43,238 nucleotides of DNA, from assembly GCA_021789895.1 (NCBI GenBank), contig JAJYIU010000005.1, positions 1-43,238 of the forward strand, in the 5' to 3' direction. The notes under the pieces are model-generated. The model did not search any database and was not told where the DNA came from. It saw only the letters and a program-made list of their open reading frames with translations. A program made the position numbers and the translations under genes. The stretch's first letter is position 1. Each line of letters starts with the position of its first letter. Shown here piece after piece: positions 2,367 to 18,191 of the stretch. Source of the DNA: Acidobacteriota bacterium. Lineage in GTDB: Bacteria > Acidobacteriota > Terriglobia > Terriglobales > SCQP01.

Positions 2367-2540
2367 AGGTGGTTTTGTGGCGAACTCGCCGTCATTGTTC
2401 AGTGATGATGGCCGGAATTCGCCGTTCTTTCGATCCAGTTCTGGTGGGATGCGCGTAAGTACAATGGGAAGCAAAACCGAAGTCTTTGCGCCCGCTTGAG
2501 CCTTTGCATTATCCTCCTTTCCGGACGCCTTAAGTCGGTG

Positions 2541-2570
2541 TTGAATTTGTCATAAAATTGGAACTATAAA
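2541..2570 (+). promoter_or_regulatory. Putative vapBC promoter
   Basis: TTGAAT at 2541-2546 and TATAAA at 2565-2570 are separated by 18 bases in an AT-rich stretch ending 33 bases before the vapB start. This is a reasonable sigma-70-type match. The -35 side (2543-2549) is identical to bases 2-8 of the psi-spacer of the mini-array at 3474-3605. The call is by eye only. Confidence 0.4.
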
Positions 2571-2603
2571 GAAATCTGGAATTTTTACAGAAAGCGGTAT
2601 TCC

Positions 2604-2867
2604 ATGCGTCGCGATGGCCAGAGCCTGAACATCAAAGCACCCGAAGCGCACCGGCTGGCACGGGCGATCGCGCACCAGACCGGCGAAACGCTCACCACGG
2701 CCGTTACCGAAGCGCTGCGTGAGCGTTATGAACGACTGCGCCGGCGCGGTGGACGGGCTTCAGTTGAAGAATTGCTGGCCATCGCTGACCGCATCGCCAG
2801 CCGCGTCAAACGCCCTTATGCCGATCACGCCGATTTGCTCTACGACGAGTATGGGGTACCGCGATGA
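2604..2867 (+). CDS. vapB: VapB-family antitoxin (PSK operon transcription-factor type)
   Basis: This 87-residue protein opens with [17 protein letters not shown] followed by [20 protein letters not shown]. That is the signature of the VapB antitoxins related to plasmid-stabilisation (PSK) operon transcription factors. The N-terminal half should form the DNA-binding, autoregulatory dimer. The C-terminal tail ([13 protein letters not shown]) is the usual toxin-neutralising extension that enters the PIN-domain active site. The stop overlaps the downstream vapC start by four bases (ATGA), the classical coupled arrangement. A promoter-like sequence sits just upstream. The antitoxin frame is intact although the toxin frame is broken. 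Confidence 0.85.
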
Positions 2868-3252
2868 TTCTAGATACCTTGGCACTGGTGGCAGTCCTTT
2901 TTCGCGAACCGGAAGCACCGCACTTCGCTCGCCTGATTCACGATGCCGACCGTTGCTTGATCAGCGCTGGTAATTTTCTCGAACCTCGCTGGTGTTGGAG
3001 CTGCAAGCCGCGACCGACGCCGACCGCTCCTGCGATACCTTTTTACGCCGGACTGGCATCATCATCGAGCCGGTGAGCGTCGAGCAGATCTATATCGCCC
3101 GCCAAGCTTTCCATGACTTCGGAAAGGGCCGCCATTCCGCCGGCCTCAATTTCGGCGATTGCTTCGCCTACGCCCTGGCCAAACTCACCGGTGAGCCCTT
3201 GCTCTTCAAGGGCGGAGACTTCGGCAAAACGGACATCCTTTCGGTGGTGTGA
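2864..3252 (+). pseudogene. vapC: Frameshifted VapC toxin (PIN-domain ribonuclease)
   Basis: The first frame reads [18 protein letters not shown]...SAGNFLE, a standard PIN-domain start with the first catalytic Asp at residue 4. At about 2981-2983 it leaves the family pattern. The -1 frame then continues with TSLVLELQAATD...IIIEPVSVEQ...GLNFGDCFAYALAKLTGEPLLFKGGDF, the rest of a VapC including the later acidic residues (NFGDC and GGDF). Restoring one A at the GAA-ACC junction (gaacctcg to gaaacctcg) gives one 129-residue frame, the usual VapC length. Either the toxin has been inactivated by a single-base loss in an A run, or this is a sequencing/assembly error. A programmed frameshift is possible but no slippery heptamer is visible. 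Confidence 0.85.
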
Positions 3253-3309
3253 TGGCCGTGGGCAGCGCCAATACCGCGTGCGTTTTTTCACCAGAGACGA
3301 TTCTGATTC

Positions 3310-3414
3310 TGCAACCTTCACCTGCCAATACCAGCCGGCGATGCAAACACTGTTGTCCATCCGTTTCCAGTGTGTCCTGGCCAGTGGCAAATGCGAGGTG
3401 CTCCTGGAAAATTA
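3310..3414 (+). pseudogene. Decayed second copy of ATPase C-terminus
   Basis: Translation from about 3310 gives a segment reading ATFTCQYQPAMQTLLSIRF followed by QCVLASGKCEVLLEN. This aligns with the C-terminus of the ATPase at 456-2366 (RTF-QPWLQKHLSIRF, ERVYESGKREVILEN). The nucleotide sequences also align (for example ggcaaatgcgaggtgctcctggaaaat against ggcaagcgcgaggtgatcctggaaaat). No start codon or upstream ATPase domain is attached, and the frame runs past the expected end. It therefore looks like the 3' end of a second ATPase gene left after deletion or insertion of the vapBC region. Confidence 0.7.
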
Positions 3415-3447
3415 TACTTGCATTAGGAATATGGATATGTTTATACG
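3413..3447 (+). promoter_or_regulatory. Candidate promoter of the CRISPR-like mini-array
   Basis: The AT-rich segment just ahead of the mini-array contains TATACT (3413-3418), TTGCAT (3418-3423) and TATACG (3442-3447). TTGCAT and TATACG are 18 bases apart, which could serve as -35 and -10 and would put a transcription start about 20 bases before psi-repeat 1. The matches are only moderate, so this is a suggestion. Confidence 0.25.
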
Positions 3448-3473
3448 ATTAATATGGCTTTTGATTCAGAAGC

Positions 3474-3605
3474 ATTTCCGGGCATCTCTGAGCCTTCCAA
3501 AAGCTCAGAGGTGCTCGGCTTCATTGAAGTAGAATTTGCATCTGTTTGGTTGTCTGCGAGTAACGCAATTTCCGCGATCATTTTTGATCGCGGCTTCGTT
3601 GATCG
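3474..3605 (+). CRISPR. CRISPR-like mini-array (psiR1 - psi-spacer - psiR2), candidate CreA/CreR-type guide RNA
   Basis: Two diverged copies of the local CRISPR repeat flank a 37-base spacer-like segment, in the same orientation as the main array. PsiR1 (3474-3530) keeps the 5' flank ATTTCC and the 3' tail GGCTTCATTGAAGT (array: GGCCTCATTGAAGC). Its stem is replaced by a 16-bp hairpin (3478-3493 with 3503-3518, two G-T wobbles, 9-base loop). PsiR2 (3568-3605) keeps ATTT and the exact array stem CCGCGATCA/TGATCGCGG, but with loop TTTT instead of TC and a degenerate tail. The psi-spacer length (37) equals the array spacer length. Known family behaviour: CreA antitoxin RNAs and CreR cas-regulating RNAs in other type I systems have this organisation next to cas genes and guide the effector to partially matching promoters. 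Regulatory function here is inference. A decayed array remnant is the main alternative. Confidence 0.75.
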
Positions 3606-3638
3606 GTATTAAACTGGCCGCATTCTGGAGAACTCACA

Positions 3639-3887
3639 ATGTCTACCCCACAAACTGCTCCTATTCCTTCGCTTTCATTAAACGATTTGCAAACGGCTGT
3701 TTCGGGTAATGCCGCTGCCTTTCGCTGCCGTCGGAAATTGCAGCCTGCCGGCGGTCCCGGCGATAAAATATTTCCTCCTACTTTTTTGGGTGGAATTTAT
3801 GCCGTCGAGCAGCAGCATATTCCGGAGCAATCCTCCCCGGTTACTTGTGTCTTGCTGGATAGCGTGCAAAGCCAGGCAGTATGCTAA
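3639..3887 (+). pseudogene. Truncated N-terminal fragment of a second csb1 (cas7, type I-G/I-U)
   Basis: The 82-residue frame begins with a good start (ctggaga upstream of ATG). It contains AAAFRCRRKLQPAGGPGDK, FPPTFLGGIYAVE and CVLLDSVQSQA, the conserved N-terminal pattern of Csb1/GSU0053 Cas7 proteins of type I-U/I-G systems. It stops right after the conserved SVQSQA block, about a quarter of the way into a normal Cas7. It is clearly different from the intact Csb1 at 8544-9557, which has the [22 protein letters not shown]-type N-terminus. It therefore appears to be left over from another lineage of the same subtype rather than a duplication of the resident gene. It lies between the mini-array and cas3. 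Whether the short peptide is still made is unknown. Confidence 0.75.
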
Positions 3888-3910
3888 CATATGTTCATTT
3901 GCATACAAAT
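3886..3910. promoter_or_regulatory. Palindromic elements upstream of cas3
   Basis: A perfect 10-bp palindrome AACATATGTT (3886-3895) is followed at once by the inverted repeat ATTTG-CATA-CAAAT (3897-3910), 54 bases before the preferred cas3 start. The second element contains the octamer ATTTGCAT, also present in the psi-spacer at 3534-3541. These are plausible operator or promoter sequences for the cas operon. No clear -35/-10 pair could be assigned. Confidence 0.35.
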
Positions 3911-3963
3911 TGTACTCGGGCGCAACTGCCAATTAGTTGATCGACGTTGCTTCGGTTCGAGAT

Positions 3964-6351
3964 ATGGATTACCAAACATTTTTCGTCTCAGCGTTTGTCG
4001 CGACCAATCGACCACTTACTCCGTTTGACTTCCAATGTCGTCTGGCCGAGCAAGCCTGGCCAGATCTGCTTGACGTGCCTACCGGAATGGGCAAGACCGC
4101 GGCGGTCGTGCTCGCGTGGTTATGGAAGCGCGGTTGGCGAAAGGATATTCGTAGCGGGGCCCTTGATCCCACTACTCCACGTCGTCTGGTCTGGTGCCTG
4201 CCGATGCGCGTGCTGGTTGAACAAACGATGGAGAACATCCGTGAATGGCTTAACAATTTGGGCATCTTGGGTGAGGCGCGCGAAAAAGGCAAGGTATCGG
4301 TTCATGTGCTCATGGGCGGAGTAGGCGATAATGAGTGGGCCAGTTTCCCCGAAGAGGACATGATCCTGATTGGCACGCAGGATATATTGCTCTCACGTGC
4401 TCTGATGCGCGGTTACGGAATGAGCCGCTATCAGTGGCCAGTTCACTTTGCACTGCTGCATAGCGATTGCCTGTGGGTGTTCGACGAAGTGCAATTGATG
4501 GGCGCGGGCCTTGCTACATCTGCGCAACTCGAAGCTTTTCGCCGGAGCTTTCCAACGTCAAAAAACAGCCGCTCGCTGTGGGTATCCGCCACGCTGAACC
4601 GAAGCTGGCTAGATACCGTTGATTTGAAGCCGTATCTGGACAGCCTGAAAACTCTGGGTATCGACACTGTCGACCGGCAGCAGGCGGGCGACAGGCTTTG
4701 CTCTGTCAAAGCGGTGGAGAAACTTCCCCTCGCGCTTGGGAAGGATGCCGGCAATAAGAAGGGTCTGGATGCCTACCTTCAGGCATTGTGCGAAGAAGTG
4801 CTGAAGGCGCACGCTGCAGACAGCCAGACCATCGTAATTCTGAACCGGGTGGACCGCGCGCAGGGCTTGTTCCGCCTGCTGCGCAAGACGCGGCCTGAGA
4901 GGGTGGATCTCCTGGTCCATGCGCGCTTTCGCGCCGCGGAACGCAGAGCGCAGAGTCAGCGTCTACGCGACAGCAACATTGCCGATCGCATTGTGGTTGC
5001 AACACAGGCCATTGAAGCCGGCGTGGATATTTCTTCCAGGGTGCTCATCAGCGAACTTGCTCCGTGGTCTTCGCTGGTGCAGCGTTTCGGACGCTGCAAT
5101 CGCTATGGCGAGCATAATGCCGAGGGAGCAAAAATTCTCTGGATAGACATTGACGACGACAAAGAGATGCTGAAGCCTTACGATAGCAGCCCAGTGGCCG
5201 CGGCGCGCAATCACTTGGCGAACCTGACCAGCGCCAGCCCGCAGCATCTGCCCGCAACCTGCGAAGCGCGGCCACTCGCCAACATTCTGCGCCGAAAGGA
5301 CTTTTTGGACCTCTTCAATACCGACCCCGACCTTTCCGGCTTCGATGTGGATGTGTCGGATTACATCCGCGATAGCGGCCAGCCCAGTGTACAGGTCTTC
5401 TGGCGCGAGTTCGAGGTCAATCCCAGCCAACCACAGTCGCAACTTGGTCCCGTCCGCGATGAGTTGTGCCCTATTTCTATGGGGCAGGTTAGAGATATCT
5501 ACAAACGCGCATGGCGCTGGGATGCGTTGCAGGACGAGTGGGTAAAACTGGAACGCCCGCCACGTCCCGGCATGACGCTGTTGTTAAAGGCGGCTGATGG
5601 CGGTTATGACGCAGAGATTGGCTTTGATGCCAGTTTGACGAAACAGTCTGTGCCTGTGGTGAATGCCGCGGAAGCTATCGTGTCAGACGCATTCGGAGAG
5701 GACTGGCGCTCACAGCAAAATTACCCTGTCGTGCTGGTAGATCATCTCGGCCACGCGGCCGATTGCATTATGCAAATGTGCAACGCGCTCGATGAGAATA
5801 TACACGTTGGCACGCTGCGCCGTGCGGCGCTCTGGCACGATGTTGGCAAGACGCATCCGGTCTTCGATGCTACCATGCACGCTTGTAATGCTTCTCCCGC
5901 AGGCTTTCTCGCCAAGTCACCCTGTAACGGAAAGCACGCACGAAAGTTCTTCCGGCATGAGCTGGCTTCCGCGCTCGCCTGGCTGGCGCAGCACAATGGC
6001 GAGTCGAACGCAGACCTCGTCGCCTATATCATCGCCGCGCATCATGGCAAGGTGCGTATGAGCCTGCGTGCCATGCCGACGGAAGAGCCGGCGCCAGATG
6101 GCAGACGTTTCGCGCGCGGCGTATGGGAGGGAGATGAGCTTCCGGCCCTGGACTTTCACGGCGAGCACAGTGACAAAACCACACTCAACCTTGCTTTGAT
6201 GGAGCTTGGTGAAGGCAAACAGGGGCCGTCGTGGGCAGCGCGCGCCTTGAATCTGCTCGAATGCTACGGCCCTTTCCAACTCGCCTGGCTGGAAACGCTG
6301 GTGCGCCTGGCCGACTGGCGAGCTTCTGGTGAAGAACAGGAGCGAGCATGA
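3964..6351 (+). CDS. cas3: Cas3 helicase-nuclease, type I-G (C-terminal HD)
   Basis: Cas3 is recruited by the target-bound Cascade-like complex, where it unwinds and degrades DNA. The SF2 helicase core comes first: PTGMGKT Walker A at residues 39-45, DEVQ Walker B box at 174-177, an SATL motif near 220, and QAIEAGVDIS...QRFGRCNR motifs V-VI. The HD nuclease domain is C-terminal (WHDVGK with His625-Asp626, then a conserved HE in FFRHELASALAW and AAHHGK), the order found in type I-G/I-U Cas3 rather than the N-terminal HD of most type I systems. The frame extends to a TTG at 3937, but ATG 3964 (MDYQTFF) matches the family N-terminus better. The stop overlaps the csx17 start (ATGA), indicating translational coupling. 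At 795 residues it has the expected length. Confidence 0.93.
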   Translation: MDYQTFFVSAFVATNRPLTPFDFQCRLAEQAWPDLLDVPTGMGKTAAVVLAWLWKRGWRKDIRSGALDPTTPRRLVWCLPMRVLVEQTMENIREWLNNLGILGEAREKGKVSVHVLMGGVGDNEWASFPEEDMILIGTQDILLSRALMRGYGMSRYQWPVHFALLHSDCLWVFDEVQLMGAGLATSAQLEAFRRSFPTSKNSRSLWVSATLNRSWLDTVDLKPYLDSLKTLGIDTVDRQQAGDRLCSVKAVEKLPLALGKDAGNKKGLDAYLQALCEEVLKAHAADSQTIVILNRVDRAQGLFRLLRKTRPERVDLLVHARFRAAERRAQSQRLRDSNIADRIVVATQAIEAGVDISSRVLISELAPWSSLVQRFGRCNRYGEHNAEGAKILWIDIDDDKEMLKPYDSSPVAAARNHLANLTSASPQHLPATCEARPLANILRRKDFLDLFNTDPDLSGFDVDVSDYIRDSGQPSVQVFWREFEVNPSQPQSQLGPVRDELCPISMGQVRDIYKRAWRWDALQDEWVKLERPPRPGMTLLLKAADGGYDAEIGFDASLTKQSVPVVNAAEAIVSDAFGEDWRSQQNYPVVLVDHLGHAADCIMQMCNALDENIHVGTLRRAALWHDVGKTHPVFDATMHACNASPAGFLAKSPCNGKHARKFFRHELASALAWLAQHNGESNADLVAYIIAAHHGKVRMSLRAMPTEEPAPDGRRFARGVWEGDELPALDFHGEHSDKTTLNLALMELGEGKQGPSWAARALNLLECYGPFQLAWLETLVRLADWRASGEEQERA

Positions 6352-8510
6352 ACGACATCACTCTTGTCGGTTGCTCGCCGACGCCGCTGGCCGGCTATCT
6401 TAAGGCGCTTGGAGTATTGCGCCTGCTCTCCGCTCGCCACCGCGAAACCAGGGCAGCATGGAGAAACGAATCGCTGCTGGTGCAAACACCGCTAACACGC
6501 GAGCAGATGGAGCAATTTTTCCTGCACGACTATCAGCCTACGCCAGTCATGGCACCGTGGAATGGCGGCAGCGGGTTCTATGAGAAAGATAATAAGGACG
6601 CGCTTGAGATCATCCTTGCCAGTAACCAGCCCAGGCTTGACCTGTACCGAAACTGCCTGCGCATGGTGGAAGATGCCCTTGCAGGTATGGACCGGAGCAC
6701 CAGCCCCAAGGGTGATGAAAAGGCTCTTCTCCTCATCCGTATGCGTGGGCTCCTGCCGGATGAAGTGATTGCATGGCTGGATGCAGCGGTCCTGCTTGCA
6801 GGCGACACGCCGCAATATCCGCCGCTGCTCGGTACAGGTGGCAATGACGGCCGGCTGGACTTCACCAACAATTTCATGCAGCGTCTTGTAGAGGTGCTTT
6901 GCCTGGATGGCAAGAGCGCCGAAACGGAATCGCGCGACTGGCTGCGCCTTACACTATTTGGCGACACCGCTCCGGGATTAACAAAAAAAGCGATCGGCCA
7001 ATTCTCTCCTGGACAGGCCGGTGGCCCCAATGGCACGACTGGTTTTGACGCGGATGCGGCCATGAACCCATGGGACTTCGTACTGATGATCGAAGGCGCG
7101 CTGCTCTTCGCCGCTGCCGCAGTTCGCCGCAATGCGGATGATCCTTACGGAGTGTTGAGCTATCCATTTACGGTAAGAACCGTGGGCGCGGGCTCTGGCA
7201 GCCTGGGTGAGGGAGATGCGGCCAATGCGCGGGGTGAGCTCTGGATGCCGTTATGGAATCAGCTTGCGAGTTATGTGGAGGTTCGTGCTCTGCTCTCCGA
7301 AGGCCGCGTGGCGCTCGGCAGGAAACCGGCGCGCGATGCGCTCGACTTTGTTCGCGCTATTCACCATCTGGGCGGTTATCGCGGCATTCGTAGCTTCCAA
7401 CGTTACGGCCTGCTGATGCGGTCGGGCAAGGCTTATCTGGCTACGCCGCTGGAGCGCATCGAAGTGACCGACAAGCCACGCACGAATCTATTAGATGAGC
7501 TTGATCAAGGTTGGCTGGAAAGATTTCGCAAGTTCGCGCAAGGCGAAACCGCCGCCAATCGCTTCCAGGCTTTGCGCCACCGCCTGGAGAATGCCTTCTT
7601 CGATTTCTCTGGCAAGGAGCTCTCACGCGAAGAAACCCAGGCCATACTCGTGCTGCTCGGAGAAATTCAATCTGCGCTGGCGGGCAGTAGCAAAGCGAGA
7701 GAGGTTGTCGATCCGCTGCCGAGGCTTTCGGAGCAATGGGTGCGACATGCAAATGACCATACACCGACTTTCCGCATTGCTCGTGCATTGGCCGGCCTGC
7801 GCGGTGGCGATACAATTCCATTGCCTCTGCGTGCCCAGCTTTTTCCGGTACATCCCCGCCACAACAAGTGGATTGAGGAGGCAGACACAGATGCCAAAGA
7901 TCCATATCGCGGCATCCGCATCTGTACCGGCACTGCCGGTAGCCTTCATCACATGCTGCAAGACCTGCTTGAACGAAGGCTCTGGCTGGCTGAGAAGTTC
8001 GAGTTGAAAGATAAGCCGCTGCAAAGCCCAGCAGGCGCTACGCTCGAAGATATTGCGGTCTTTTTGCAAAGCGACAGTATGGATCAGCGCATCGCCGTGT
8101 TATTGCCGGGGCTGAGCTTGTGTGCAGTTCCCAGAGAGGATGATCGCTCAAGCGGAGACGGCTCACTCCCATCCGCCTTTGCCTTGCTCAAGCTGTGTTT
8201 TACTCCGGATTCGATCCTGCGCAGCCTTTGCGCGTTCGGACAAGACGAACACCTTCCTGTGCCGGCGGGAATGCTCCCGCAACTTGCGTCCGGACAGTCT
8301 GAACGCGCTGTGCTCACGGCATGGCGACGGCTCCATGCTTCGGGCCTGAACCCGCTCTTCAGCCGGAATGATTTGCCTTCGATTGGCGGCATCCGTCCCG
8401 AACGTGCGGCGGCAGCGCTGTTAATTCCATTGCGTTACGGCGCATACGCCAAACTTGTGTGCAGTGTATTGAAGAAAACAGGTGTGGAAGTTGGTAGTCC
8501 AGTGGCATAA
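6348..8510 (+). CDS. csx17: Csx17 / Cas8g large subunit, type I-G
   Basis: The N-terminus MNDITLVGCSPTPLAGYLKALGVLRLLS is diagnostic of Csx17, the large (Cas8-like, formerly Cas8u2) subunit of type I-G interference complexes. It probably recognises the PAM and helps recruit Cas3. The AWRNESLLV and PWNGGSGFY segments that follow are further family hallmarks. It starts within the cas3 stop codon (4-base overlap) and is followed after 33 bases by csb1, so cas3, csx17, csb1 and csb2 form one transcription unit. Length (720 residues) is normal and no frame interruption is seen. Confidence 0.9.
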   Translation: MNDITLVGCSPTPLAGYLKALGVLRLLSARHRETRAAWRNESLLVQTPLTREQMEQFFLHDYQPTPVMAPWNGGSGFYEKDNKDALEIILASNQPRLDLYRNCLRMVEDALAGMDRSTSPKGDEKALLLIRMRGLLPDEVIAWLDAAVLLAGDTPQYPPLLGTGGNDGRLDFTNNFMQRLVEVLCLDGKSAETESRDWLRLTLFGDTAPGLTKKAIGQFSPGQAGGPNGTTGFDADAAMNPWDFVLMIEGALLFAAAAVRRNADDPYGVLSYPFTVRTVGAGSGSLGEGDAANARGELWMPLWNQLASYVEVRALLSEGRVALGRKPARDALDFVRAIHHLGGYRGIRSFQRYGLLMRSGKAYLATPLERIEVTDKPRTNLLDELDQGWLERFRKFAQGETAANRFQALRHRLENAFFDFSGKELSREETQAILVLLGEIQSALAGSSKAREVVDPLPRLSEQWVRHANDHTPTFRIARALAGLRGGDTIPLPLRAQLFPVHPRHNKWIEEADTDAKDPYRGIRICTGTAGSLHHMLQDLLERRLWLAEKFELKDKPLQSPAGATLEDIAVFLQSDSMDQRIAVLLPGLSLCAVPREDDRSSGDGSLPSAFALLKLCFTPDSILRSLCAFGQDEHLPVPAGMLPQLASGQSERAVLTAWRRLHASGLNPLFSRNDLPSIGGIRPERAAAALLIPLRYGAYAKLVCSVLKKTGVEVGSPVA

Positions 8511-8519
8511 CATCTTTGA

Positions 8520-9557
<1,038 letters not shown>

Positions 9558-9567
9558 GGAGTAATCC

Positions 9568-11109
9568 ATGCTGGCGCTCGCATTCACTTTTCCTTCCGGA
9601 CGTTATCACGCGACACCGTGGGATAGGCACGTCAACGAAGGCGCTGTGGTCTGGCCGCCGGAGCCGTGGCGCGTGCTGCGCGCCCTCATCGCTACTTGGC
9701 ATCATAAGGTTAAGCCTCTCGGCAGGCATGAAGAGTCCACGCTACGCGGGCTGATTGAAGAACTTTCGCGGGAACTTCCTGAATATTCGCTGCCCCATGC
9801 TAGTCATAGCCACACGCGCCATTACATGCCGCAACGGGAGACGGGCAAAACATCGCTGGTTTTCGACGCTTTCGCCGCCATCTCGCGCAATGAGCCGCTG
9901 GTTATGGCATGGCCGAAGCTAGATTTGCCCCAGGAGCAGCTTGCTCTTTTGGACGACCTGCTTGCCGTCATGGGATACTTGGGACGTGCCGAGTCGTGGG
10001 TCGAAGCTATCCGCTTTGATGGCACATTCCAGCCCAATTGTCGTCCCGGAAGCGAGCAATCCACAAGTGATCTATCCGCCGGCGAATCGCGGGAAGAGAT
10101 CGTCTCGCTGCTCGCTCCGCTGGCGTCGGATGCCTATGGCAGCTTTCGCAAGCGTTTTCTGGCTGACAAAAAAGCAGCGAAGATGCTCGCGGGAACCCTG
10201 CCGGAGAGTTTGTTGGATGCTCTATCGGTAGAAACCTCGAATTTGCGCGCTCTTGGTTGGAGTCAGCCACCGGCCTCGCGCAAAGAACTCTATCGTCGCC
10301 CTTCCGAGGCGCTTCGTCCACGGCGCAAGCCCCAACCGGCAGCAGCGCTCACTGCCACTACGGCCCGCTATATTTTGATTGGCAAGCCCTTGCCTCGCGT
10401 CGAAGACACCGTCCGCATCGGCGAACTGTTTCGTCGCACTGTAATGAGCGAAGCCAAAAAGCTATTTGGAGAAGATGTAATTCCAGCAGTCATCTCAGGG
10501 CACGGATTGCCAAAAGAGAATCGTCACCGCCATGCCTTTTATCTGCCATGGGATTCCCCAATTTCCGGCCGTAGAGACGGCGATGGACGCATCGACCGTC
10601 TCATCTTGCATTTTCCTGATGGCATGGATCAGGACACGCGGCAAATCGCTGAAAGGCTTAGTCGTGTCTGGAGCCGTGATGGCGGCGAGTGGCAAATCGT
10701 GCTCGAAAACATCGGAGAGTCGGAAGTCGGGGGAGATTTGTTGGCTAAAGTAAGTGAGTGGGAATCGGTTACGCCGTACCTGCATCCGTGGTATATGAAA
10801 CGCGGTTTCGATGTCGGTGCGCAGATCAGGCGGGAGTGCGCCATGCGAGGTATGCCAGAACTGGTCGAACTCACGCCACTTCCTGCCGTAAAGGTTGGCG
10901 CGCAATTGCGACAGTCGCTTCACTTTCGCCGTTTTCGAGAGAAACGCGATCTCAAACAACCGGACCGCCAAGGCAGCTTCTGGCGCATCCGCTTCGCACA
11001 ACCGATAGGTGGTCCCATATCGATCGGCTTCGGTTGCCATTTCGGTTTGGGCATGTTCCGGCCTGTTGTCGTGGCATGCTCCCTGAACCGTGCTTCTCCA
11101 TATGAATAG
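9568..11109 (+). CDS. csb2: Csb2 (Cas5-Cas6 fusion, GSU0054 family), type I-G
   Basis: Csb2 combines a Cas5-like N-terminal RAMP domain (LALAFTFPSGRYHATPWDRHVNEGAVVWPPEPWRVLRAL pattern, the family signature, in the first 45 residues) with a Cas6-like C-terminal domain. It is expected to cut pre-crRNA at the palindromic repeat and stay on the crRNA 5' handle. The HGLPKENRHRHAFYLP segment, about 310 residues in, is rich in histidines and is a candidate for the processing active site. Its start lies 10 bases after csb1, with AAGGAG overlapping the csb1 stop. The 513-residue length is as expected. The cognate hairpin repeat stem is also kept in psiR2 of the mini-array, consistent with processing of that RNA by the same enzyme. 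Confidence 0.9.
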   Translation: MLALAFTFPSGRYHATPWDRHVNEGAVVWPPEPWRVLRALIATWHHKVKPLGRHEESTLRGLIEELSRELPEYSLPHASHSHTRHYMPQRETGKTSLVFDAFAAISRNEPLVMAWPKLDLPQEQLALLDDLLAVMGYLGRAESWVEAIRFDGTFQPNCRPGSEQSTSDLSAGESREEIVSLLAPLASDAYGSFRKRFLADKKAAKMLAGTLPESLLDALSVETSNLRALGWSQPPASRKELYRRPSEALRPRRKPQPAAALTATTARYILIGKPLPRVEDTVRIGELFRRTVMSEAKKLFGEDVIPAVISGHGLPKENRHRHAFYLPWDSPISGRRDGDGRIDRLILHFPDGMDQDTRQIAERLSRVWSRDGGEWQIVLENIGESEVGGDLLAKVSEWESVTPYLHPWYMKRGFDVGAQIRRECAMRGMPELVELTPLPAVKVGAQLRQSLHFRRFREKRDLKQPDRQGSFWRIRFAQPIGGPISIGFGCHFGLGMFRPVVVACSLNRASPYE

Positions 11110-11180: not shown

Positions 11181-11474
11181 ATGCGCACCTCCTATCTGGT
11201 CTGCTACGACATCGCCGATGACAAGCGCCTGAAAAAAGTCTTCAAGGCCATGCGCGACTTTGGCGACCATCTGCAATATTCCGTTTTCGAGTGCCAATTC
11301 ACCCCTTCTGATCTGGTCCGTTGCCGCGAAGCCCTGCGCGGACTGATCAACCATGCCGAGGATCAGGTGCTGTTCGTCAGTCTCGGACCCGCCGAAGGCC
11401 GCGGCGAGCGCGTCATTGCCGCCTTGGGCAAACCCTATCTGATAAAGTTGGACGCTCCTTGCATCGTGGCTTAG
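11181..11474 (+). CDS. cas2: Cas2 adaptation protein
   Basis: This 97-residue protein starts MRTSYLVCYDIADDKRLKKVFKAMRDFGDHLQYSVFEC, the ferredoxin-like fold of Cas2 with the conserved YDI Asp after beta-strand 1 and the QYSVFEC strand. Cas2 dimers bridge two Cas1 dimers in the spacer-integration complex. It precedes the cas4-cas1 fusion by 10 bases and follows csb2 after a 71-base AT-rich gap that may hold its own promoter. No strong ribosome-binding site is seen ahead of the ATG. Confidence 0.95.
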   Translation: MRTSYLVCYDIADDKRLKKVFKAMRDFGDHLQYSVFECQFTPSDLVRCREALRGLINHAEDQVLFVSLGPAEGRGERVIAALGKPYLIKLDAPCIVA

Positions 11475-11484
11475 TAGTTGCTCC

Positions 11485-13347
11485 ATGAGTACGATGCCAC
11501 AATCCGCGCCTGATCGGAATGCTGGCGAACGCCATCTGGGCAAATCCCTGCCGGATCTGCTGCCGGCTCGCATGCTCAATGAGTTCGTCTATTGCCCTCG
11601 CCTTTTTTATTACGAATGGGTCGAGAAAGTTTTTCAATCCAGTGTGGATACCGCGGAAGGTCATGCCCGGCATCGCCGCGTGGAAGCGGATTTCGACTCC
11701 CTGCCGGCCCCGGACGAGGCGGAAGCGGAACAAATCCATTCCCGCTCCATTGAATTATCCAGCGAGCGCCTGGGCTTGATCGCCCGCCTCGATCTGATTG
11801 AAAGCTCGGCGGGGGAAACCAATGTCACGCCCGTGGATTATAAGAAAGGTCGGCCGCGGGATACCGAGGCCGGACCCGAACCCTGGCCCGCCGACCGCGC
11901 CCAAATCGCCGCCCAGGTCTTGATCGTTCGCGATAATGGCTATGCTTGCGCGGGCGGAGTGCTGTATTACGCCGCCTCCAGACAGCGCGTCCCCGTGGCC
12001 GTGGATGCCGCCTTGGAAGCTGAGGTCTTGCAAGCGCTGGCTCAGGCGCGCGCCGTCGCGGCGGATACTCGTATTCCGCCCCCCCTGGAGGATAGTCCTA
12101 AATGCCCGCGATGCTCGCTCGTGGGCATCTGTTTGCCTGATGAAACCAATGCCTTGCGTGCGCGCCTGACGCAATTGCAGGCGGCCGCGCCGCGTTCTCC
12201 CTTGCAGTTGCCCTTGTTTCCTGCTGTCGAATCGTCGCCCGCGCCCGTGCGTCCCTTGATCGTTCCGCGCGATGATCTGCGCCCCGTCTATTTGAATTCT
12301 CAGGGCTGGCGGGTGGGCAAATCTGGCGAAGTTCTGCAGGTGCGCGGCCCGGCCGAAGGCAAAGGCCGAAAACGGCAAGACGAATTGAAGTTGGAATTCC
12401 GCTTGGGCGAAATATCCCAGGTGAACGTCTTCGGCAATGTCCAGCTCTCGACCCAGGCGATTCAGTCCTTTTGTGAGGCCGAAGTGCCGGTCTGCTACTT
12501 TTCCCAGGGCGGATATTTTTATGGCATCACCAATGGACTGAACACCCGCAATGTCTTCTTGCGCCGTATGCAATTTTTAGCGGCTGAGAATCCCGCTCTG
12601 GCCTTGGCCCTGGCTAGGCGCCTGGTCGCCGGGAAAATTCGCAATCAGCGGACCCTGATGCAGCGCAATCATCTTACCCCGCCCGACGATGCGTTGCGCT
12701 TGTTGCGGGCGTTGCTGGAATCGGCCGAAGCGGCTGTCAATGCGGAAAGCTTGCTGGGCATCGAAGGCGCCGCCGCGCGCGCCTACTTCGGCGCCTTCTC
12801 GGGAATGTTGAAAGTGGAGGATCAGGCTGCGCAGGCTCTTTCGCAGGCGGCATCACAGAAGTCATCTGCGATTCTTAGTTTTGATTTTCAGGGCCGCAAT
12901 CGCCGCCCGCCGCGCGATCCCGTGAATGCTTTGCTCTCCTTGGCCTATAGCATTCTGGCTAAAGATGCCACCTTGGCCTGCTATGCCATCGGCTTTGACC
13001 CTTATTGGGGCTTTTATCATCAACCCCGTTTCGGCCGCCCCGCCCTGGCCTTGGATTTGATCGAGCCTTTCCGTCCCTTGATTGCCGATTCTGCCGTATT
13101 GACGGCTATCAATACCGGCATGGTGCGGGAATCCGATTTCGTCCGCGCCGGCAACGCCGTCGCCCTCAAGCCTGAGGGCCGCCGGGCATTTTTTCATGCC
13201 TATGAAATGCGCATGGATGCCCTTGCTACTCATCCCTTGTTCGATTATCGTGTGAGCTATCGCCGCATGCTCGAAATCCAGGCCCGCTTGTTGGCCCGCT
13301 TCCTTACCGGCGAAATTCAGGAATACCCGGTTTTTATCACCCGCTGA
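11485..13347 (+). CDS. cas4-cas1: Cas4-Cas1 fusion protein
   Basis: The 620-residue protein fuses a Cas4 nuclease (about residues 25-225) to a Cas1 integrase (about 255-620). Cas4 shows the four Fe-S cysteines (Cys37, then Cys207, Cys210 and Cys216 in KCPRCSLVGIC) and RecB-type catalytic residues (Asp103 in ARLD, VDYKK at 117-121, Gln140/144). Cas1 shows the metal-binding set: Glu427 in GIEGAAARAYF, His512 in FYHQP and Asp524/Glu527 in LDLIEPFR. The fused enzyme trims prespacers, defines PAM end and orientation, and integrates them with Cas2. Such fusions are characteristic of type I-G. The linker (about 226-255) is Ala/Pro-rich. It is the last cas gene, 233 bases before the first repeat. Confidence 0.95.
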   Translation: MSTMPQSAPDRNAGERHLGKSLPDLLPARMLNEFVYCPRLFYYEWVEKVFQSSVDTAEGHARHRRVEADFDSLPAPDEAEAEQIHSRSIELSSERLGLIARLDLIESSAGETNVTPVDYKKGRPRDTEAGPEPWPADRAQIAAQVLIVRDNGYACAGGVLYYAASRQRVPVAVDAALEAEVLQALAQARAVAADTRIPPPLEDSPKCPRCSLVGICLPDETNALRARLTQLQAAAPRSPLQLPLFPAVESSPAPVRPLIVPRDDLRPVYLNSQGWRVGKSGEVLQVRGPAEGKGRKRQDELKLEFRLGEISQVNVFGNVQLSTQAIQSFCEAEVPVCYFSQGGYFYGITNGLNTRNVFLRRMQFLAAENPALALALARRLVAGKIRNQRTLMQRNHLTPPDDALRLLRALLESAEAAVNAESLLGIEGAAARAYFGAFSGMLKVEDQAAQALSQAASQKSSAILSFDFQGRNRRPPRDPVNALLSLAYSILAKDATLACYAIGFDPYWGFYHQPRFGRPALALDLIEPFRPLIADSAVLTAINTGMVRESDFVRAGNAVALKPEGRRAFFHAYEMRMDALATHPLFDYRVSYRRMLEIQARLLARFLTGEIQEYPVFITR

Positions 13348-13580: not shown

Positions 13581-16500
13581 ATTTCCGCGATCATCTGATC
13601 GCGGCCTCATTGAAGCAGAATCCAGCCGCAGCTAAGAACCCAGCCGGCATAAATTTCCGCGATCATCTGATCGCGGCCTCATTGAAGCGAGCGATCACGC
13701 TCACAGCGCAACCACCAAACCAACTCATTTCCGCGATCATCTGATCGCGGCCTCATTGAAGCCGAACGCCACCGTCCAGCTGTTGCTCCTGGGGAGGGTA
13801 TTTCCGCGATCATCTGATCGCGGCCTCATTGAAGCTACGCCGGCGACGCCCTCCCAGACCTCGAAAGACAATATTTCCGCGATCATCTGATCGCGGCCTC
13901 ATTGAAGCGGAAAGCCAAGCCCACCTAGTTGATGCCTCCGCGCGAGATTTCCGCGATCATCTGATCGCGGCCTCATTGAAGCATTGATTAGCAATCGTTT
14001 TTCCACCGCGCGCCGTTTATTTCCGCGATCATCTGATCGCGGCCTCATTGAAGCTCCCGTTCCATCCGGTTTGGACCTCGACCTGCTTTTCATTTCCGCG
14101 ATCATCTGATCGCGGCCTCATTGAAGCGGTGGCAATGCGGGGCAGAAAAGCGATTTCGCAGGTGATTTCCGCGATCATCTGATCGCGGCCTCATTGAAGC
14201 CTCATTTTCGTATAGCGCATTGGCGTTATCCAGCAACATTTCCGCGATCATCTGATCGCGGCCTCATTGAAGCTTGTTGACATCATACAAGGCGCGGCGT
14301 AACGATTCATTTCCGCGATCATCTGATCGCGGCCTCATTGAAGCTTACCGATTTGGAATCGCTGCTGTAAGGTGATTCCGGCATTTCCGCGATCATCTGA
14401 TCGCGGCCTCATTGAAGCCAGAGCGCCGGCGCTATCATACTCCAATTCTGGCGCCCATTTCCGCGATCATCTGATCGCGGCCTCATTGAAGCTATCGTCC
14501 GTCCATCCCGAACGCTTGAGTTCGGCATATTTCCGCGATCATCTGATCGCGGCCTCATTGAAGCAAGTAATGCTGGAATGTCATTTACCGATCTATCTGC
14601 ATTTCCGCGATCATCTGATCGCGGCCTCATTGAAGCCCTTTGCCCCTCTTTCAGCCGCACCACCCGCAAGTGAATTTCCGCGATCATCTGATCGCGGCCT
14701 CATTGAAGCATTGGCTGTCAATAGGCAATCGCTCTTTCAATGACATTTCCGCGATCATCTGATCGCGGCCTCATTGAAGCATAAGGCGCTTGCAGTTTAC
14801 TATCCTTAGATGCAGTAATTTCCGCGATCATCTGATCGCGGCCTCATTGAAGCATAAAATAATCCAGATGGCCTGGCTGTCTTTTCAGCATATTTCCGCG
14901 ATCATCTGATCGCGGCCTCATTGAAGCGCAGCCGAATAACATTTCTCGGCGAATGAGTTAGCCTCATTTCCGCGATCATCTGATCGCGGCCTCATTGAAG
15001 CTACGATGGCGTGTGCGAGGGATACCAAGCCGCAATAGAATTTCCGCGATCATCTGATCGCGGCCTCATTGAAGCCGGGAAATAGGTGTTGCGAATGCGT
15101 CTCAACCTGCTTTATTTCCGCGATCATCTGATCGCGGCCTCATTGAAGCCTGCAACAGCCGGGCCGGGGCAGCCGTATCCAACCGATTTCCGCGATCATC
15201 TGATCGCGGCCTCATTGAAGCCGGTAGACTCCGCCGACACCCGGCTGGCCGGCTGAGATTTCCGCGATCATCTGATCGCGGCCTCATTGAAGCCCTATAT
15301 CTCATATATTGGAGCGTCACTTTATCCAAATTTCCGCGATCATCTGATCGCGGCCTCATTGAAGCGACGCGGCGAAGAAACTGCTGGACAGCGGATCGTT
15401 ATTTCCGCGATCATCTGATCGCGGCCTCATTGAAGCCGGGGCCTGCGCTGAGGCGCTGGACTGGGCCGAGATATTTCCGCGATCATCTGATCGCGGCCTC
15501 ATTGAAGCGATGGGCTTGGCCGAAACCGTCACTGTTTGCGGGGATTTCCGCGATCATCTGATCGCGGCCTCATTGAAGCCCCTCGCGCACTCGCACCATA
15601 GCCGGACTCCCGGCCAGATTTCCGCGATCATCTGATCGCGGCCTCATTGAAGCGGGCTCTCAGTTGGACGGATTCGACGGCATTGACGCATTTCCGCGAT
15701 CATCTGATCGCGGCCTCATTGAAGCAAATTGAATGCCCTCAGGCAATATGAGGGTTTGATCATTTCCGCGATCATCTGATCGCGGCCTCATTGAAGCTTG
15801 TATGGTAATTGCGCCATTTTCCAATGCCCATGCATTTCCGCGATCATCTGATCGCGGCCTCATTGAAGCAATGTATCCTGCAGCCCGGACAAAAACGATG
15901 TTATTCATTTCCGCGATCATCTGATCGCGGCCTCATTGAAGCAGCTCCGCCATCGGCTGAATTTGGGGCGGAGCCGGATTTCCGCGATCATCTGATCGCG
16001 GCCTCATTGAAGCGCAACGCCGGCATGGCGGCGCTGGAAGGCGGAAAGGCCATTTCCGCGATCATCTGATCGCGGCCTCATTGAAGCCATCGCGCTGCTG
16101 CTGGATTTGCTCCAGCTTCTGGATTTCCGCGATCATCTGATCGCGGCCTCATTGAAGCAGACAACGCTGCCCACGCTCCATCACCATGCATGTATTTCCG
16201 CGATCATCTGATCGCGGCCTCATTGAAGCGATACATATTACGCCTTGGGCGGCTGGCTCATCGTATTTCCGCGATCATCTGATCGCGGCCTCATTGAAGC
16301 GCGGCGCTGATTAACGTCGGCGGCATCATCTTTGCCGCATTTCCGCGATCATCTGATCGCGGCCTCATTGAAGCATCGCTTATGAAGCCGCCGAGACGGC
16401 GGCATCCGCGCTCGCCAGAGCCCGCATTTCCGCGATCATCTGATCGCGGCCTCATTGAAGCTGCGCGCGCCCTGGGCATTTATGCATTCAGGAGCCGCAT

Positions 16501-18191
16501 TTCCGCGATCATCTGATCGCGGCCTCATTGAAGCATGAGGTGCTGTCTGGACCCCTCGCCGGCTCTCCATTTCCGCGATCATCTGATCGCGGCCTCATTG
16601 AAGCCCCCCGGTGCCTGCCGGTCCAGCCGGCCCAGGCCCGATTTCCGCGATCATCTGATCGCGGCCTCATTGAAGCAGTGGAGGTTACTGGGCCACGTCG
16701 CCGCGCAATCTGATTTCCGCGATCATCTGATCGCGGCCTCATTGAAGCGCTGGCGCTGGTATCGGATCTGGTGTTGAATCAGTATTTCCGCGATCATCTG
16801 ATCGCGGCCTCATTGAAGCGTTTACGATTCCGGGGACGGCGAACCAGAGTTGCATATTTCCGCGATCATCTGATCGCGGCCTCATTGAAGCCTGTCTATT
16901 CCAGCGACAACACCGATTCGCCGCGTATTTCCGCGATCATCTGATCGCGGCCTCATTGAAGCCGACAAGTATTCTAGGGGGCACAGGTAATTTCGTGCAT
17001 TTCCGCGATCATCTGATCGCGGCCTCATTGAAGCGCGGCAACTCCGCCGGCGCCCGGCACGACAAGAGAATTTCCGCGATCATCTGATCGCGGCCTCATT
17101 GAAGCCCATTGCTGGCGTTCCTGATCCACGGTGGCAGCTTATTTCCGCGATCATCTGATCGCGGCCTCATTGAAGCTATGAAGCGCATTGCCTTGTTTTT
17201 CTTTTTATCGCTATTTCCGCGATCATCTGATCGCGGCCTCATTGAAGCGTTATCGCTGTCCAAGCGGTACCTCCGGCCCACGGATATTTCCGCGATCATC
17301 TGATCGCGGCCTCATTGAAGCTTTGTGACAAGTCTGTGGCGCGGTTGCCACTGCTGCATTTCCGCGATCATCTGATCGCGGCCTCATTGAAGCCCGAGAT
17401 ATTCTCGCGCTTCCACCTCAGTAAATACAATTTCCGCGATCATCTGATCGCGGCCTCATTGAAGCATGAGTCCAGCGAGGACGACGATCCCGAAATGCCG
17501 ACGGATTTCCGCGATCATCTGATCGCGGCCTCATTGAAGCATATGCTTTCACCTCCCATTCGGATTTGGCGTTCTGTATTTCCGCGATCATCTGATCGCG
17601 GCCTCATTGAAGCCCGCGCGCCGGGCGTGCTAACGCGGAAACTTGTGAATTTCCGCGATCATCTGATCGCGGCCTCATTGAAGCACCCGCCCAGTTCGCG
17701 ACTGGGCCCCAACCCCACGCCATTTCCGCGATCATCTGATCGCGGCCTCATTGAAGCGGCTTCGGCGGCGGCCGCAAGGTGATCTCCTCGGCATTTCCGC
17801 GATCATCTGATCGCGGCCTCATTGAAGCTGTTGCAAAATCCCGCTGAATTGCAGGCTGCGGTCGAATTTCCGCGATCATCTGATCGCGGCCTCATTGAAG
17901 CCAGCCAGCTCTTCTGCCCGATCTTCCAGTCGAAATGATTTCCGCGATCATCTGATCGCGGCCTCATTGAAGCCGGTCGGTGCATAGTCCGGCGTTCTTA
18001 TGCGGATCCATTTCCGCGATCATCTGATCGCGGCCTCATTGAAGCGGCACCGCGGCGGCCGCGACCGCGCAGCGGACGCGCGATTTCCGCGATCATCTGA
18101 TCGCGGCCTCATTGAAGCTAGGCTGCGCTCCCCTCGTAATCCCCTCCGACGTGGCATTTCCGCGATCATCTGATCGCGGCCTCATTGAAGC
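13581..18191 (+). CRISPR. CRISPR array, 64 repeats and 63 spacers (type I-G)
   Basis: The 36-base repeat consists of ATTT, then the 9-bp inverted repeat CCGCGATCA/TGATCGCGG around a TC loop, then the 3' tail CCTCATTGAAGC. I counted 64 copies and all look identical by eye, including the last one starting at 18156. Repeat-to-repeat distance is 70-75 bases (spacers 34-39 nt) except for one 87-base unit (spacer 39, 16375-16425). The hairpin repeat with an ATTGAAG(C) handle suits cleavage by the Cas6 part of Csb2. The orientation (same strand as cas genes, leader at 13.35-13.58 kb) is also supported by the mini-array, whose repeats point the same way. I saw no duplicated spacers, but did not test exhaustively. 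Confidence 0.98.
16375..16425 (+). other. Oversized spacer 39 with a repeat-tail-like insert
   Basis: This spacer is 51 nt, against 34-39 nt for all others. Its first 14 bases, atcgcttatgaagc, resemble the 3' part of the repeat (atcgcggcctcattgaagc), and removing them leaves 37 nt, a normal spacer. The remaining part begins with a GCCGCC-gagac-GGCGGC hairpin. Confidence 0.7.

Follow-up and report, generated by a model that had tools for sequence, protein, structure and literature searches.

A putative Cre-type guide in the 5' leader of a csb1-led operon at a type I-G CRISPR-Cas locus of an Acidobacteriota bacterium

Two diverged CRISPR repeats around a single spacer lie ahead of the type I-G cas genes in a 43,238-nt stretch of DNA from an Acidobacteriota bacterium (contig JAJYIU010000005.1; "the window" below), raising the question of whether this pair is the remainder of a CRISPR array or encodes a guide RNA with a role of its own. 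RNA-guided self-repression of cas genes by CreR, the cas-regulating mini-CRISPR RNAs, has so far been reported for types I-B, I-E and V-A (PMC13131331, PMC12737573), and CreTA toxin guards are known from types I-B and I-F (PMC8501985, PMC9458426, PMC10097628). In CrePA, the CreA-repressed toxin is a protein with a KilA-N domain (PMC12737573). No literature joining CreR, CreTA or CrePA to type I-G was found, CreR being judged from reviews; Cre guides as such are known, but the type I-G instance appears to be new. As set out below, the element at positions 3474-3605 is probably a Cre-type mini-array within the 5' leader of an operon that began with csb1, and it is best read as a CreR equivalent of type I-G.

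The cas genes of the window were assigned to type I-G by NCBIfam (Table 1). The repeat of the main array, ATTTCCGCGATCATCTGATCGCGGCCTCATTGAAGC, is present in 64 copies on the strand shared with the mini-array; this array is found ~10 kb from the mini-array, at the opposite end of the operon.

Table 1. Coordinates of the mini-array, its target and the type I-G locus in the window
Feature	Position	Strand	Remarks
AT-rich stretch, presumed to contain the promoter for mini-array and downstream genes	3410-3465	+	From AT content
PAM TTA	3423-3425	+	Fits TTN, the type I-G PAM (PMC9638904)
Partial protospacer of the psi-spacer	3426-3462	+	13/15 non-flipped positions in nt 1-17; best genomic site
psiR1	3474-3530	+	Diverged repeat with 16-bp stem; fold z -6.2; cleavage geometry of type I-G repeats
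psi-spacer (guide)	3531-3567	+	37 nt, from sequence; length inside the range of array spacers
psiR2	3568-3605	+	Array stem, longer loop, degenerate 3' end; fold z -3.8
csb1', N-terminal fragment of a second cas7/csb1	3639-3887	+	Pfam Cas_GSU0053, 1.8e-11, profile 2-52/168
cas3 (cas3g)	3937-6351	+	TIGR02621, 786 bits; likely ATG 3964, mechanical ORF start TTG 3937
csx17/cas8g	6348-8510	+	NCBIfam
csb1/cas7g	8526-9557	+	NCBIfam
csb2	9568-11109	+	NCBIfam
cas2	11181-11474	+	NCBIfam; 79% identical to G006
cas4-cas1 fusion (cas4g-cas1g)	11485-13347	+	NCBIfam; 74% identical to G006
Main CRISPR array	~13581-18191	+	64 repeats

The preliminary description of this DNA, made from the sequence alone, had reported two diverged repeats in array orientation around a 37-nt psi-spacer, 359 nt ahead of cas3, and these coordinates proved exact, the distance running from the end of psiR2 to the likely cas3 ATG. 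The psi-spacer, AGAATTTGCATCTGTTTGG, compares with main-array spacers of 34-39 nt. psiR1 has the layout ATTTCCGGGCATCTCTGAGC-CTTCCAAAA-GCTCAGAGGTGCTCGG-CTTC-ATTGAAGT, in which ATTGAAGT (3523-3530) is the terminal handle. Folding bore out the further claim that the structure of psiR1 was kept, with a 16-bp hairpin that contains two G-T wobbles (-30.5 kcal/mol, z -6.2) and that was equalled in none of 200 shuffles, and it agreed as well with the description of psiR2 as a repeat with the array stem, another loop and a degenerate tail (stem CCGCGATCA/TGATCGCGG, loop TTTT, end GTTGATCG; -15.6 kcal/mol, z -3.8). In type I-G, for which the PAM is TTN, the cut by Csb2 falls 4 nt downstream of the hairpin base and gives the guide a handle of 8 nt (PMC9638904), and this geometry is unchanged in psiR1 (...GCTCGG/CTTC/ATTGAAGT). 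In its repeat ends, stem, spacing and handle, the mini-array resembles ordinary type I-G arrays, from which it differs in having two diverged repeats only, in its distance from the leader and main array and in its seed-limited self-target. psiR1 is more diverged than psiR2, since the array stem is present in psiR2 and absent from psiR1; the same has been described for creA (PMC9458426). At this cas locus we thus find an ectopic two-repeat mini-array of degenerate repeats, as expected of CreR. A search of the genome found no further copies of the element outside the main array, and none of the close relatives carried the mini-array.

CreA pairs through psi-spacer nt 1-5 and 7-11 with a PAM-flanked promoter site (PMC8501985), and a PAM-flanked partial match to the psi-spacer was found just upstream of psiR1. 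It reads TTA followed by GGAATATGGATATGTTTATACG (from 3423 and 3426, respectively), lies on the same strand as the guide and ends 11 nt before psiR1. Apart from mismatches at nt 1 and nt 9, the psi-spacer matches it at all non-flipped positions of nt 1-17; beyond nt 17, matching is at background level. Within the region 2501-4200, a PAM-flanked match of this quality (13/15) was obtained with none of 2000 shuffled psi-spacers and with none of 62 main-array spacers, the best of which reached 11. In the 43-kb window, the protospacer is the only match of at least 12 apart from the spacer itself, and, the guide itself excepted, no other site in the 3.75-Mb genome fits the PAM-plus-seed pattern as well (2 mismatches as compared to 3 for all others). 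A PAM-flanked, seed-limited match of the psi-spacer therefore adjoins the cas operon. Two other candidate pairings were rejected: the best local match of the spacer that would follow psiR2, as the source of a second guide, was no better than those of shuffles, and an 8-nt stretch, ATTTGCAT, common to the psi-spacer and the DNA just before cas3 (~3896), was considered a chance similarity because seed nt 1-3 are unmatched and there is no in-register TTN PAM.

These matches bear on the reading that the two repeats are a functionless remnant of an array end in decay. In favour of it are the divergence of the two repeats, their array-like spacing and the occurrence of decayed repeats ahead of cas genes at another locus (L129). 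However, the spacer of the mini-array is related to its neighbouring DNA, the seed match with its PAM, a short way ahead of psiR1, is unique in the genome, the same arrangement is found at other I-G loci, and the main array is 10 kb off at the other operon end. Because a random spacer would not give a PAM-flanked 13/15 match before psiR1, decay was rejected as the main reading and is considered extremely improbable; the preliminary description had argued against random decay from preserved structure and spacing, to which the match and its recurrence are now added.

The target stretch is AT-rich (72% AT in the protospacer vs 47% in the surrounding 2 kb) and both csb1' and cas3 lie downstream of it, with no terminator-like site recognised anywhere in 3250-3960. 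Scanning of 3410-3470 (+ strand) for the sigma-70 consensus gave no promoter, so that the promoter activity of the AT-rich stretch can only be presumed.

A guide of this kind could also be an antitoxin to a toxin RNA or protein expressed from the targeted promoter, as in CreTA and CrePA. Such modules adjoin type I cas operons (PMC8501985), mini-arrays related to that of the window lie beside PIN-type genes at other I-G loci (L029, L169, L170, L173), and a vapBC pair is encoded upstream in the window. With CreA of CreTA, the window shares the order psiR1-psiS-psiR2, the stronger divergence of psiR1 and a PAM-adjacent match in the seed (nt 1-5 and 7-11). However, the 11 nt between the protospacer and psiR1 leave no space for a creT toxin RNA; the ORF that follows the target is a Cas7 (csb1) fragment and not a toxin protein; and vapBC was rejected as the regulated toxin, given that its promoter is >800 nt from the target and that vapC is frameshifted. 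A toxin guard at this site is therefore very unlikely. The proposal of a CreA- or CreR-like guide in the preliminary description stands in that a PAM-flanked match was found nearby and recurs at I-G loci, but its CreA variant does not fit and CreR is favoured, because a toxin gene cannot fit between the target and the mini-array. The vapBC-like pair itself (2604-3252) consists of a gene for a VapB-like antitoxin (PSK_trans_fac) followed by that for a PIN toxin, which is split by a frameshift at ~2990.

The 82 codons of csb1', between the mini-array and cas3, provide an indication of the history of the locus. Only one full-length csb1 is found in the genome. csb1' is 65-73% identical to the N-termini of the full-length csb1 that three same-family genomes (G009, G012 and G006) carry, up to ...VQSQA, where the similarity ends and the proteins of G006, G009 and G012 continue; the gene is thus truncated at ~codon 81 while its frame is still open. 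In G006, a csb1-csb2-cas3 operon is followed by cas2 (79% identity to that of the window) and cas4-cas1 (74%) and then by an array with a near-identical repeat, whereas the csb2 and cas3 of G006 are just 24-27% identical to those of the window. The effector module of the window was instead found, at 76-86% amino-acid identity, in a congener, G001, in which neither csb1' nor a mini-array is present upstream of it. The csx17-csb1-csb2 module of the window (6348-11109) hence belongs to another I-G lineage than csb1'. Taking into consideration the truncation of csb1' and the likeness of cas2 and cas4-cas1 to G006 and of the effector to G001, the interference module was most likely exchanged in the lineage of the window, between ~codon 81 of csb1 and cas2, and csb1' would mark the junction. 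The mini-array was, by the same sequence comparisons, most likely part of the 5' end of an older csb1-led operon and did not belong to cas3 as such.

Recurrence of the arrangement was assessed in ~160 I-G loci, of which 80 came from a csb1-alignment scan and the rest from whole-genome searches, by counting ectopic handles for which a TTN-flanked target scoring 13/15 or better lay no more than 800 nt away. There were 26 such handle sites as compared to 1.0 in shuffles, a count that also takes in L168, a duplicate of L027, and a few entries that are weak or lie in coding regions; with a target of at least 14/15, there were 14 vs 0. In an unbiased test, positions 1-17 were weighted equally and the PAM was ignored, so that the flipped-base pattern (nt 6 and 12) played no part in the selection of matches. 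TTN preceded the upstream matches of exact-handle sites in 15 of 25 cases (p=1.6e-12 vs uniform 1/16) and the downstream matches in none of 8. Among 23 upstream cases with TTN, the frequency of matching dropped to 0.35 at nt 6 and 0.30 at nt 12, was 0.70-1.00 elsewhere in nt 1-17 and was at background beyond nt 17, whereas 264 non-TTN matches showed no dip (0.77 at nt 6 and 0.76 at nt 12). The two dips together with the stop after nt 17 read as the flipped-base signature of a type I seed. AT content exceeded that of the surrounding 2 kb in all 24 protospacers listed. Such guides were found in at least eight phyla, as assigned from the records and the group searched (Acidobacteriota, Verrucomicrobiota, Planctomycetota, Pseudomonadota, Deinococcota, Chloroflexota, Myxococcota and Binatota).

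Three architectures could be distinguished. In the first, the csb1 leader contains a mini-array in sense orientation, its psiR2 being separated from csb1 by ~25-90 nt and its target lying further upstream; this group comprises the window, L027, L036, L051, L151 and L039 and, in a looser form, L032, L057 and L069. The 5'-leader layout of the window is thereby also found ahead of an intact csb1 (in L027, L036, L051 and L151). In the second, the guide is antisense and its target is at the csb1 or cas3 start, adjoining a consensus-like promoter that faces the cas genes (L042, with 15/15, L030, L160, L063 and L140). At L042:9751-9977, an antisense two-repeat mini-array encodes a guide that matches 15/15 at the csb1 start beside a TTGACA/TATGCT promoter, making this the clearest putative CreR-like case observed in type I-G. 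In the third, the mini-arrays lie beside PIN-type genes (L169, L170, L173 and L029), and a DUF433 gene follows L030. At L169, L170 and L173, a DUF3368 PIN-type gene is located between the TTN-flanked target and the ectopic I-G mini-array and is followed by UPF0175, and its product is a candidate for a CRISPR-repressed toxin of the PIN class. At L029:9060-9644, an ectopic I-G repeat has a 15/15, TTC-flanked target 63 nt upstream and a PIN_3 gene directly after it. The two-repeat element that the preliminary description had suggested looking for upstream of cas3 does recur at other I-G loci, upstream of csb1.

Two loci of one genus, L035 and L037, showed 96% identity over guide nt 1-23, compared to 79% in psiR1 and 44% in the following stretch (44-79% for the segments neighbouring the guide). 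No target of at least 11/15 was found for L037 locally, nor any target in its genome, so this pair supports conservation of the guide and not its coupling to a target. The local target of L035 (12/15) was no better than other sites in its genome and was counted as weak. In another genus of the family of the window, a single ectopic repeat lies ~330 nt upstream of cas3 (L225:5354-5386, genome G002), for which no target was found. An I-G operon that begins with cas3 is preceded, at a distance of ~800 nt, by four diverged repeats (L129:4550-4820, G412) that have the appearance of a truly decayed array and for which no PAM-flanked target was found.

Since the element of the window belongs to the first architecture and its guide is aimed at its own AT-rich upstream stretch, CreR-like autoregulation is favoured. 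Transcription would start in the AT-rich ~3410-3465 and run through psiR1-psiS-psiR2 into the downstream genes, possibly as far as cas3. Csb2 would cleave psiR1 four nt past the hairpin, giving a guide composed of the handle ATTGAAGT, the psi-spacer and the psiR2 hairpin, and the guide-loaded I-G effector could then bind 3426-3462 next to the TTA PAM, with seed pairing confined to nt 1-17. Such seed-limited pairing would be sufficient for binding, presumably without triggering Cas3, and the bound effector would for this reason block the promoter region that serves the mini-array together with the downstream genes. A shortage of free effector, due to many crRNAs or to an anti-CRISPR, would be expected to relieve the repression. 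The guide probably holds defence genes in check in this way.

With CreR, the window shares the degenerate-repeat mini-array at a cas locus, the limited PAM-flanked complementarity of the psi-spacer beside the cas operon and a target without a toxin gene. It differs from known CreR in the type I-G setting with a TTN PAM, in the placement of the mini-array within the 5' leader, after the target and ahead of the first gene, and in a neighbouring csb1 that is only a fragment and is followed by an effector of another lineage; in addition, the repression is putative, and no consensus promoter was recognised at the target. In resemblance to CrePA, a toxin-like gene adjoins some of the related I-G mini-arrays or their targets, but these genes encode PIN/DUF3368 proteins with UPF0175 rather than KilA-N proteins.

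As the element is older than the present effector module, its present activity is less certain than its past activity: the guide of the window may still act on the new operon or may be a recent relic. As a relic, it would have been a true Cre guide while the older csb1-led operon was in place, would have become functionless upon the effector exchange and would have been drifting since. Besides the truncation of csb1' and the foreign lineage of the effector genes, the absence of the mini-array from the congener with the same effector and a seed match that lacks nt 1 and 9 are consistent with a relic. The present Csb2, coming from another lineage, may moreover not process psiR1, and psiR1 specificity of haloarchaeal CreTA was found to depend on the cognate Cas6 (PMC9458426). 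However, the PAM, the handle, both hairpins, the spacer length and the 13/15 pairing are all intact, csb1' retains an open frame, psiR2 has the same stem as the present array, and no terminator-like site separates the element from cas3. Loss of function is thus possible but rather unlikely, and the intact PAM, handle, hairpins and seed would speak for recent or present use of the mini-array as a CreR-like guide, even though nt 1 and 9 are unmatched.

The type I pairing signature of guide-target pairs is herewith extended to the least studied type I subtype and to at least eight phyla, and some of the I-G pairs adjoin PIN-type toxin genes. We tentatively suggest, as a proposal that falls somewhat short of being probable, that type I-G broadly uses Cre guides, with a CreR-like set that is located in the leader of csb1-led operons or aimed at the csb1 or cas3 start and a second set that lies beside or is aimed at genes for PIN-domain toxins (PIN_3, or DUF3368 with UPF0175), and that the guide of the window outlived the replacement of its effector and now governs a heterologous I-G operon. 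If this is true, PIN-domain toxins would represent a new class of CRISPR-repressed toxins. The guide-target pairs offer cheap and direct tests of how type I-G reads seed and PAM, their seed-limited targets provide a way to ask about escape from Cas3, and with the element of the window it can be asked if ectopic guides follow or resist the exchange of effector modules.

The DNA upstream of the mini-array also contains a P-loop ATPase-like ORF (456-2366) with 18-bp tandem repeats (1802-2013), and a remnant that resembles the C-terminal end of this ORF is located at ~3330-3420, just before the mini-array.
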